DNA of 64,000 nucleotides from Flavobacteriales bacterium (GTDB lineage Bacteria > Bacteroidota > Bacteroidia > Flavobacteriales > Schleiferiaceae). The stretch lies in assembly GCA_017795025.1 (NCBI GenBank), contig CP051243.1:2566897-2630896 (forward strand), written 5' to 3'. Position numbers and translations under genes: made by a program. The notes beneath the pieces were generated by a model. That model had not been told where the DNA came from. It worked only from the letters and a program-made list of their open reading frames with translations, and did no database searches. Positions 50,651 to 53,206 of this stretch are shown piece by piece (the first letter of the stretch is position 1; the number at the start of each line of letters is the position of its first letter).

Positions 50651-52027
50651 ATGCCTTATCATCAACCGGAGAAAATCGGGATACCGCCAATTCGCTTTTA
50701 TGGAGGCCTCTTCCTTGGTTTAGCCTTCGGCCTGGTTTTCTACCAATTTGGTATTCTCCTGGCCGAGCTACTCCGCTTTATGGCCATGGACCATTATTTT
50801 CAGTTTTGGCCATTGACCTCCGAAGAGCGGCTTTATTTTAAACTGTTCTTTGCGGCCTTGGGCTTCATTGGTGGGTTAGGAGTCATTTTTGACCTCTGGT
50901 TTTATCGCGCTCGGACTTATGGCTCGAAAGTGCCAAGTTTCCGTAGTAGGGTATACAATGATCACACTGTTTTACAATGGAGCTTTCTACATTGGTTTAT
51001 TAAGCTGGGCTTCCTTTATATCACTTTTTTAGGTTGGACCTTTTTCTCCCCAAAAGACAGCCTTAACTTTTATGAAAATTATTTTTGGTTATTTCCCGGT
51101 ATTCTGTTGGCGCTCTTCCTTAATATGTGGAAAAGCCTACTGCTTAAATACCGTGGCACCGCCTTTCGTTATATGGGCTTAAGTGCCCTTCTTATTGCGG
51201 CATTAAGCGGTTTGGCTAGTCAATGGGACTGGGTAAATGCTGAGGCCATTGAAGCCGAAATAGCAAAGAACAACCCCTACAAGCGATTCGATGTACAAAT
51301 TCCTATTACAAGCTATGGGGAGAGAGACAGCAGCTTTCGGGTCTTTTATCAAGAGTACTTTTTAGTCCCTTCCGACAGTTCAAGTTTTGAAATTTATAAG
51401 AGCTTAAATAAATGTGTGGTTTCCCAAGCTGAGTTTTTAATAGGGCTGCATGATGCCTATTTTTATAGAGCTCATTTTATTCCTCCTTATCGTCGCTTGC
51501 GTTGGGTAATTGATAAAGACCTCATCATGGAATCGGTTATAAAGGCCCACTTTTTACTACCCGATTATATATATGCGCGTGGCATTAATTATGCCGTTCA
51601 GCCTAAAGCAAATACTAGGGCCTTGGACTATTTCAATTTCCAGGTATACTATTATGGTAGTGGTCTTGATGCTGAACTCAATATACCCCTTCCTCCACCA
51701 TCTCCGTTTGTAGCTAAATTATATGAGTATGAACTTAGGCTTGAACCCGGAGTAAAAAACCGAATAATTGTTGATGGTCGTGAAATCGGTATAAAAGAAT
51801 TAGAAGCGCTCATCCTGCAGCGTCTAAAAAACAAAGAGCCGCTCGGTTTTCATTTTTCGGGCTGGCAGCAAAAAAGATTTGGCAATTATTTTAAGGTGCT
51901 CGAGACCATTCGAAGGGTTTTAGATAATTCTTCCCAGCTGGGACTCAGAAAAGAGAACACAAGCATAAATATTCGTTTCGACGATCAGGTTACCAAGTCA
52001 ATGAGTTTTAAACCGATTAACCGTTAA
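50651..52027 (+). CDS. Unrecognised five-helix membrane protein
   Basis: The 458-aa protein has about five membrane helices in its first 190 residues (near 17-42, 62-85, 115-131, 145-160, 173-190) and a soluble C-terminal half. Its end (RIIVDGREIGIKELEAL ... LETIRRVLDNSSQLGL) vaguely recalls ExbD-type domains, but the topology is different and I do not assign it. It starts 29 bp after the thioredoxin-fold gene. Its stop codon lies inside the first nested palindrome. Confidence 0.7.
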   Translation: MPYHQPEKIGIPPIRFYGGLFLGLAFGLVFYQFGILLAELLRFMAMDHYFQFWPLTSEERLYFKLFFAALGFIGGLGVIFDLWFYRARTYGSKVPSFRSRVYNDHTVLQWSFLHWFIKLGFLYITFLGWTFFSPKDSLNFYENYFWLFPGILLALFLNMWKSLLLKYRGTAFRYMGLSALLIAALSGLASQWDWVNAEAIEAEIAKNNPYKRFDVQIPITSYGERDSSFRVFYQEYFLVPSDSSSFEIYKSLNKCVVSQAEFLIGLHDAYFYRAHFIPPYRRLRWVIDKDLIMESVIKAHFLLPDYIYARGINYAVQPKANTRALDYFNFQVYYYGSGLDAELNIPLPPPSPFVAKLYEYELRLEPGVKNRIIVDGREIGIKELEALILQRLKNKEPLGFHFSGWQQKRFGNYFKVLETIRRVLDNSSQLGLRKENTSINIRFDDQVTKSMSFKPINR

Positions 52028-52065
52028 TCTTTTCGATAAACGGTCGTTTATCTTCGATTAATGGT
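52020..52065. repeat. Nested palindrome copy 1
   Basis: Outer arms ACCGTTAATC (52020-52029) and GATTAATGGT (52056-52065) and inner arms GATAAAC (52035-52041) and GTTTATC (52046-52052) enclose a GGTC loop; internal loops are TTTTC and TTC. The layout is identical to the copy at 52791-52836. It overlaps the stop codon of the preceding gene. Confidence 0.8.
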
Positions 52066-52078
52066 AGACCCGCCAGTT

Positions 52079-52088
52079 ATAGCGCTAT
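52079..52088. repeat. Short perfect palindrome
   Basis: ATAGCGCTAT is a 10-bp perfect palindrome between nested copies 1 and 3. Confidence 0.35.
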
Positions 52089-52110
52089 TTATCAGTGTGT
52101 TATGTTTTTC

Positions 52111-52128
52111 GGTAAACGGTCGTTTATC
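52111..52128. repeat. Nested palindrome copy 3 (inner hairpin only)
   Basis: GGTAAAC-GGTC-GTTTATC repeats the inner hairpin and GGTC loop of the full copies, preceded by TTTTTC like their internal loop. It lacks outer arms and lies 37 bases before the start of the 203-aa gene. Confidence 0.65.
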
Positions 52129-52164
52129 GGTAAAGAGCCATTACCTTGCTTTAAAATAGGATCT

Positions 52165-52776
52165 ATGAAATTGCTTTTCTCTTTTTTAAGCCTCTCCCTC
52201 CTTTTTCTTCTTAGCACCACACCTCAGGAAAACCCCTTAATTGAAAAAGACTTTAGTGAGGCGCTGATGCCCCAATGGGAGTTTTTAGGTTTTATTGGAG
52301 AGGAAAAGCAACGCATCTACATCCAGTTTACCGATCTAAAACAAGACCCCAGCCTTCCATCACTTTATCATTTGAGCGGCTTTACCACGGTAAAAGGCAA
52401 TCGCTGTGACTTTAAAGGGAGCCTTATTCTTGAGTCCATTGAACGGCAATCCCTCGGGGGTGATTCCCTCCAAGGTGTGCTCCGTGGGACTTATCGCCTA
52501 GCCGAGGATCCTCGTCAACAGCATGTAGGTGTTTTCCAAGGCCGATTTTGGGCCCATTGGCTTTCGCCTGATGGCATCCAAATAGAATACTTCCAGCCTC
52601 GTCGCTATACAGATGAGTATAAAAATAACCAGTACCAAGGAAGCTGGACTGCTTATGGGGACTCTATTCCTAAAGTCTGTAATTGGGGGGAGCACCGCAT
52701 TCCTCAAAGTGAAGACTTGGATATTGGTGCTGCCGAATTTAGCGCCAACCCGAAATACCGAAACCGAGGTTGGTGA
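52165..52776 (+). CDS. Secreted orphan protein flanked by nested palindromes
   Basis: The 203-aa protein has a signal peptide (MKLLFSFLSLSLLFLLSTT) and a beta-rich body (QRIYIQFTDLKQ; YHLSGFTTVKGNRCDFKGSL; FQGRFWAHWLSPDG) of no family I recognise. The start at the ATG at 52165 gives a standard signal. Copies of the same nested palindrome lie on both sides (52020-52128 before it, 52791-52836 after it), which could mark a mobile or duplicated cassette, though no transposase is present. Confidence 0.65.
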   Translation: MKLLFSFLSLSLLFLLSTTPQENPLIEKDFSEALMPQWEFLGFIGEEKQRIYIQFTDLKQDPSLPSLYHLSGFTTVKGNRCDFKGSLILESIERQSLGGDSLQGVLRGTYRLAEDPRQQHVGVFQGRFWAHWLSPDGIQIEYFQPRRYTDEYKNNQYQGSWTAYGDSIPKVCNWGEHRIPQSEDLDIGAAEFSANPKYRNRGW

Positions 52777-52790
52777 TGTGTTTTCCGTTT

Positions 52791-52836
52791 ACCGATAATC
52801 TTTTCGATAAACGGTCGATTATCTTCGATAAGCGGT
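52791..52836. repeat. Nested palindrome copy 2
   Basis: Outer arms ACCGATAATC (52791-52800) and GATAAGCGGT (52827-52836) and inner arms GATAAAC (52806-52812) and GATTATC (52817-52823) enclose the loop GGTC; internal loops are TTTTC and TTC. The spacing is the same as copy 1 base for base. It follows the 203-aa gene by 14 bp. Confidence 0.8.
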
Positions 52837-52921: not shown

Positions 52922-53206
52922 ATGAAGCCTTCTTATTGGGCACTTGGGCTGTGTGTGGGGCTGGCACTGCTTTTAGGCGGGTGCGCCCCTAGTGCCTACA
53001 CCGAGCAGCCTGCGGGTTTTTTTAGTGGACTATGGCATGGTTTCATCATTCTTTTTTCAGCTTTCGGTAAGCTGTTTAGTTTCGATGTGGGTATTCATGC
53101 CTCCCATAATACCGGTTGGCCCTATTGGTTAGGCTTTATTCTAGGCTTAAGCATGTCTATAGGTGTTGGCGGAAAGGCTGGTCAAAAAGCGCGTCGAAGT
53201 AAGTAG
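52922..53206 (+). CDS. Small lipoprotein with hydrophobic segments
   Basis: The 94-aa protein has a lipobox LLGGC (Cys21) and two further hydrophobic stretches (about 32-50 and 67-85, the latter Gly-rich: WLGFILGLSMSIGVGG), then a basic tail. It matches a pattern I have seen in small Bacteroidota membrane proteins but cannot name. It precedes the M23 peptidase gene by 30 bp. Confidence 0.65.
   Translation: MKPSYWALGLCVGLALLLGGCAPSAYTEQPAGFFSGLWHGFIILFSAFGKLFSFDVGIHASHNTGWPYWLGFILGLSMSIGVGGKAGQKARRSK

Follow-up and report, generated by a model that had tools for sequence, protein, structure and literature searches.

Arrays of direct half-sites around an orphan gene of a Flavobacteriales genome are candidate operators of a conserved LytTR response regulator

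The stretch of DNA analysed here (the window, 64 kb) belongs to a Flavobacteriales genome of 3.44 Mb on a single contig (G000), which forms a genus set of seven genomes (G000-G006) together with its relatives. Three adjacent genes of the window, one at 50651-52027 and the genes B and C listed in Table 1, had no Pfam match and are accompanied by the sites described below in part of the genus. The start of gene B was picked by eye within the open reading frame 52102-52776, and the gene lies 3' of one repeat copy (copy 1, 52020-52065) and 5' of another (copy 2, 52791-52836). The original prediction described these copies as nested palindromes flanking an orphan gene; this arrangement was confirmed, the copies being 88% identical over 50 nt, and an inner-only third copy at 52111-52128 proved equally real (87% identity in register). 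When up to three mismatches were allowed, the inner 18-mer was found at three places in the window, giving six matches over both strands (shuffle mean 0.04). The claim of a shared two-stem architecture held for copy 1 (inner stem 7/7, outer stem 9/10 strict pairs plus one G-T), which folds into both described stems (DNA fold z -2.45), but not fully for copy 2 (6/7 and 8/10), whose best single-strand fold differs from the two-stem form. The dominant repeat in the window copies, missed in the first inspection, is a direct one, TTCGATAAACGGT ... TTCGATWANYGGT, with a pitch of 21 bp; on the other strand it reads as a 9-12-9 bp arrangement with ACCGTTTAT. Further half-sites were present 3' of copy 1 at 52111-52131, and copy 2 is without this downstream part (CAG box and further half-sites).

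Table 1. Genes and sequence elements at the locus (window coordinates)
Feature	Position	Strand	Remarks
Copy 1, left half-site, inverted (ACCGTTAATC)	52020-52029	-	outer arm of the original prediction; varies among sites
Copy 1, middle half-site TTCGATAAACGGT (ACCGTTTATCGAA on the - strand)	52032-52044	+	hardly varies across the 20 aligned sites
Copy 1, right half-site TTCGATTAATGGT	52053-52065	+	direct repeat of the middle half-site, pitch 21 bp
ATCAG box	52091-52095	+	+56 from copy 1 middle half-site
Half-site GGTAAACGGT	52111-52120	+	offset +76; part of the inner-only third copy
Half-site GTTTATCGGT	52122-52131	+	offset +87
Gene B, orphan, 203 aa	52165-52776	+	no Pfam match
Copy 2, left inverted half-sites TCCGTTTACC and ACCGATAATC	52784-52800	-	overlapping each other
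Copy 2, middle half-site TTCGATAAACGGT	52803-52815	+	
Copy 2, right half-site TTCGATAAGCGGT	52824-52836	+	pitch 21 bp
Gene C, 94 aa, lipoprotein-like (by eye)	52922-53206	+	3' of copy 2; no Pfam match

Across G000 the inner 18-mer occurred at six exact places and, with one mismatch, at a seventh; all seven are on the + strand, four of them at 2,380,562-2,399,748 and three in the window. A covariance model added two weaker places, 557501 (-) and 1252771 (+), the latter (L058:4972-5031) lying between convergent genes and having the terminator-like form of a hairpin with a T run. Since copies exist elsewhere in G000, the alternative of a local duplication only, raised with the original prediction, fails. 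Under strict filters, this covariance model with the inner stem (R1) gave matches at E <= 0.001 in six of the seven genus genomes and in none of the other 81 of the 88 family genomes searched. A sequence-only model of 20 sites (R2) matched in all seven genus genomes (best match in G003, 2.1e-6); 33 of the 86 matches listed had E < 0.001, and the 53 with E of 0.001 or more were left uncounted. Among 31 family genomes outside the genus R2 revealed no strong site, matches at E <= 0.1 being present in 16 of them (best 1.7e-4). An exact pattern scan with one genome per species, a set that may omit records of or near the window's genome, matched in two contigs, both of genus members (G004 and G005). 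The word CCGATAAACGG was found at six places in G000, three of them within known sites, and a scan judged by eye revealed no core at the other three loci.

Twenty of the 33 R2 hits, from six genus genomes, make up a gap-free alignment, from which the inner-only copy, the terminator-like match L058 and the weak sites L038 and L041 were left out. The pattern used to find the sites included TTCGAT, the spacer and the greater part of the middle half-site, which by itself accounts for some of the conservation in these columns; it played no role in selecting columns 58-64 or the row of the site upstream of the HAD hydrolase gene in G001. A direct repeat of at least 9/13 was obtained in all 20 aligned sites, with a mean direct identity of 10.6/13 at pitch 21 as compared to 1.25-4.55 at pitches 15-20 and 22-24. 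The inner stem was 7/7 in five of the 20 sites and the outer stem at least 9/10 in one. In the two-stem structure 65.3% of the cells were paired (65.9% in shuffles), four pairs were changed on both sides (4.8 in shuffles) and the covariation score was 0.098 (0.099 in shuffles), while RNAalifold retained four pairs, none of them compensated. By pair counts and RNAalifold over the 20 sites the two-stem structure was rejected for the site family, and the palindrome reading of the original prediction had to be given up, as pairing was no better than in shuffles while the direct repeat was kept in every site. The structure did outscore slid versions of itself, which paired 23-43% of the cells with covariation scores of 0.018-0.066; this is expected, because it had been drawn from one member. 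Nested palindromes appear because half-sites in opposite orientation are complementary. Mixed-orientation half-sites can thereby mimic nested hairpins, which is a trap for palindrome surveys.

The stems formed by copy 1 would also suit a structured RNA or a terminator-like mRNA hairpin, as would single-member folds with z below -3 at four of the 20 sites (two in G000, one each in G004 and G006) and the resemblance of the weak G000 match at ~1252771 to an intrinsic terminator between convergent genes. However, the members differ in the shape of their folds, pairing is not above that of shuffles, the four pairs left by RNAalifold are uncompensated, the orientation relative to the gene varies among targets, and Rfam at gathering scores matched nothing in the 64-kb window, making an RNA element most improbable. 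Readings as attC or dif sites were set aside by eye.

A resemblance to REP sequences had been pointed out in the original prediction. REP sequences have a conserved hairpin stem, and none was found over the 20 aligned sites. PF01797, the family under which RAYT presumably falls, gave no match at E <= 0.001 in G000, so the proposed search for a RAYT or IS200-like transposase came out negative in the window's own genome; in the genus set PF01797 matched in two of the seven genomes (G002 and G003). According to the available part of the literature, REP sequences are abundant, as a rule with more than 100 copies in a genome (PMC2817692), and have a GTAG or CGTC tag at one end (PMC3733652). The copy number in G000 is far from this, with the six exact places, the one with a mismatch and the two weaker hits. 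GTAG was found in 4/20 sites and CGTC in 1/20, and therefore neither is a feature of the family. In the window, GTAG lies at 52063-52066, right after the right arm of copy 1.

The sites might also represent a REP-like or MITE-like mobile palindrome family that spread through the genome and was partly domesticated. This is very unlikely, even though two cores in G000 (L017:4539-4594 and L017:14526-14581) share 55/56 bp with no BLAST match between their 600-bp flanks, TTTACCGATAAACGG stands on one side of the G000 HAD site and an exact inverted copy of it on the other, and GTAG follows the right arm in the four sites mentioned, window copy 1 included. The exact copies are only six, a Y1 transposase match was not obtained in G000, pairing does not exceed that of shuffles, and species with HAD proteins 59-70% identical to that of G000 carry the sites at the same positions. 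For the copy number, the transposase and the missing covarying stem the REP resemblance was abandoned. From the phrase "mobile or regulatory palindromes" in the original prediction the regulatory part was retained, as sites lie at the same places across species, and the mobile palindrome was not, given the few copies and the lack of a covarying stem.

The two nearly identical cores are about 10 kb apart (about 2380538 and 2390525 in G000), and their flanks have no detectable similarity. Judged from these sequences, the 55/56-bp cores between dissimilar flanks suggest copying of the unit. It is conceivable, although rather unlikely, that the core represents a short operator cassette copied as a unit among unrelated intergenic regions, in which case the regulon would have grown by operator copying and not by point mutation; if unit-copying of one core is true, it would be an example of regulon growth by operator duplication. 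Another site, at 2388121, lies within a decayed duplicate of the tRNA-Met-to-HAD region (155/211, 73%). The decayed tRNA-Met copy with its site (L017:11966-12174, ~2387965) is ~11.6 kb away from the intact tRNA-Met/HAD region (L018:5554-5756, ~2399554), and between the tRNA-Met copies genes resembling a type I restriction-modification set and a gene for a KAP-like P-loop ATPase were recognized by eye, as if an island had been inserted there.

The positions of the sites were compared across the genus. None of the 33 hits (E < 0.001) is contained in an open reading frame of at least 85 aa, shorter frames being ignored, and four reach 4-22 bases into the 3' end of a gene. At most 350 bp separate 29 of the 33 from the 5' end of a gene, which is modest support only, because a gap between genes usually has a 5' end on at least one side. 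All seven genomes have the HAD hydrolase gene (59-70% identical to the G000 protein), and a site precedes it in five of them (G000, G002, G004, G006 and, in a weaker form, G001); in the upstream regions of G003 and G005 no site was seen by eye. Alignment of the five HAD upstream regions revealed the islands TTTCGATAAACGGTC..TAATCTTCGATTA, then CAG, then TTATCGGT, between unconserved flanks, and such islands in five species look like footprint-type conservation. Gene B is present in five of the seven genomes, each with sites before or behind it. The interval from the thioredoxin to the M23 peptidase gene, to which the window sites belong, contained sites in 6/7 genomes, the six in which it was inspected (all but G003); in G005, without a match to gene B, relatives of the thioredoxin (57% identical) and the M23 peptidase (59%) enclose two sites. 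Further recurring places are a methyltransferase gene (G000, G004 and G006; 55-63% identical), a CNRDV lipoprotein gene (G002, G004 and G006; 81-88%), the 3' side of a LruC-like gene (G000, G004 and G006; 76-81%) and a lipoprotein pair of one family in G000, G001 and G006, whose members are 23-33% identical and perhaps not orthologous.

The geometry of these sites is regular. Relative to the middle half-site the right half-site lies at +21, and in 10/13 sites at HAD and in the B/C/M23 interval a further direct half-site follows at +74 to +76 or at +86 to +87. A CAG-like box ([AT][AT]CA[GA]) at +55/+56 was present in 11 of these 13 sites as compared to one of 16 other sites examined. The two classes of downstream half-sites are one helical turn apart, which fits proteins bound on one face of the DNA. 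Half-site orientation is away from the gene at HAD, B and C but along it at the lipoprotein pair.

A genome-wide scan revealed two sites upstream of one LytTR response regulator gene, in G004 and G006 (E = 2e-5 each). In G000 this gene, one of 12 LytTR matches, lies at C1:2686523-2687197, ~56 kb beyond the window. Its product has a receiver and a LytTR domain, matches to solved structures covered the receiver part only, and no kinase gene was found beside it among the open reading frames listed in G000. The orthologue is present in all seven genus genomes, the other six being 84-94% identical to the G006 query, with the match in G003 ending near a contig end. A half-site pair was detected upstream of the gene in each of the seven; six scored above all 960 background windows, which were taken from G000 DNA only, while the G000 pair is degenerate and was equalled by 14/960, and a harsher score cut-off misses the pairs of G000, G004 and G006. 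Among pitches of 12-33 the best was 20 or 21 in each of seven regions (G000 and G002-G007; G001 and G002 are near-identical upstream of the gene and were treated as one lineage), with smaller secondary values at 25 and 28. The best of nine other G000 LytTR loci, two of them identical in sequence, was equalled by 105/960 windows, two of the 11 other loci being left out for too little upstream DNA or for want of an open reading frame in the table. The regulator also occurs in nine genomes of four other genera, among which an upstream pair was found only in G007 (2/960) and weakly in G022 (26/960), and no strong site was detected elsewhere in these nine genomes. Just 5' of the half-site pair a second conserved stretch, TTATTAACAGSTGTT-like, was observed (L133, L135, L136 and L137); it recalls the CAG box seen at the target sites and perhaps marks a second factor. 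Two of the LytTR matches in G000 (C1:51813-52079 and 3435396-3435662) have identical scores and are ~55 kb apart if the contig is circular, possibly a duplication.

Taken together, the copies are probably operators of this conserved, autoregulated LytTR response regulator, controlling a genus-specific regulon; binding, the identity of the binder and autoregulation are all read from DNA sequence. Each core would consist of two direct, ACCGTTTAT-like half-sites (9-12-9 bp) whose pitch of 21 bp corresponds to two helical turns, often with a third, inverted half-site at the left. Before gene B and HAD, extra half-sites at about +75 or +86 and the CAG box at +55/+56 would extend the array upstream of the gene start, and one regulator would dock at such arrays before genes, its own gene included. 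Activation is our guess for the sign of regulation. The spacing of LytTR operators was found in all 20 aligned sites (a direct repeat of pitch 21 equals 9-12-9), although the search pattern covered part of both half-sites, and the genus genomes encode the regulator with sites upstream of its gene, the pair being degenerate in G000. Several observations argue against the operators: G000's own degenerate pair (14/960), the secondary pitch values of 25 and 28, the regulator in four other genera without strong sites, the different half-site orientation at HAD, B and C and at the lipoprotein pair, the four of 33 sites that precede no gene within 350 bp, and the advantage of the two-stem structure over its slid versions (65% vs 23-43% of cells paired). 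Moreover, a core copied between unrelated flanks was not predicted.

The DNA evidence as a whole suits any regulator that binds direct repeats two helical turns apart, for example one of the AraC type. The pair upstream of the LytTR gene fits a target as well as autoregulation, and the gene is present in genera without strong sites, so a different binder, with the LytTR gene merely one of its targets, is a possibility we regard as doubtful yet worth keeping in mind. Against it speak the 9-12-9 geometry and the ACCGTTTAT half-site, both of which match published LytTR sites, as well as the finding that, among the 33 hits, no regulator gene other than the LytTR gene directly follows a site (judged by eye, with neighbours partly annotated). 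The HAD site of G004 has an HTH-like gene as a neighbour, but this gene ends 23 bp ahead of it, which places the site at the gene's 3' end. The LytTR operators proposed here would provide a testable regulon and a likely regulator in a little-studied Flavobacteriales genus. Among the titles listed in the open literature, none dealt with LytTR operators of Flavobacteriales, and a literature search with the half-site letters returned unrelated titles only.

Compared with known systems, the sites have in common with REP/BIME elements and their RAYT that they are intergenic, partly palindromic and dispersed, with GTAG after the arm in 4/20 sites. They differ from them in having six exact copies instead of more than 100, no Y1 match in G000, no covarying stem and positions that are conserved between species. 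LytTR sites are described, in the part of the source at hand, as repeats of 9-11 nt that are 11-13 nt apart and have no common consensus (PMC4847170), and for the latter reason sequence resemblance is weak evidence for this family. Examples in the portions available are the repeat ACCACTTAT-12-ACCGCTTAT and the AlgR boxes CCGTTCGTC and CCGTTCATC (PMC4847170, PMC4064291, PMC6193735). With the operators of AgrA, YpdB and HdrR/BrsR (9 bp-12 bp-9 bp) the sites share two ACCGTTTAT-like direct half-sites 12 bp apart in intergenic DNA and a pair upstream of a LytTR gene; in contrast to these operators they include additional half-sites facing either way and, at some of the sites, a CAG box whose offset is constant, and their half-site orientation changes from one target gene to another.

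The half-site CCGTTTATC is shared with the AlgR boxes of Pseudomonas algD, algC and rhlI (CCGTTCGTC), and in G004 and G006 the copies preceding the regulator gene equal the AlgR box CCGTTCGTC on the other strand. As far as the consulted excerpts describe them, AlgR boxes likewise occur several per promoter and in both orientations, but need no tight pitch such as the 21 bp found here. Within the same phylum, the LRS-like operons of Bacteroides combine LytTR regulators with direct repeats, reported in the accessible part of PMC6193735 as 11-bp repeats 11 bp apart. Their regulators are, by the same partial account, membrane proteins encoded in the operons, whereas the candidate regulator described here is a receiver-LytTR protein with sites at many unlinked genes.
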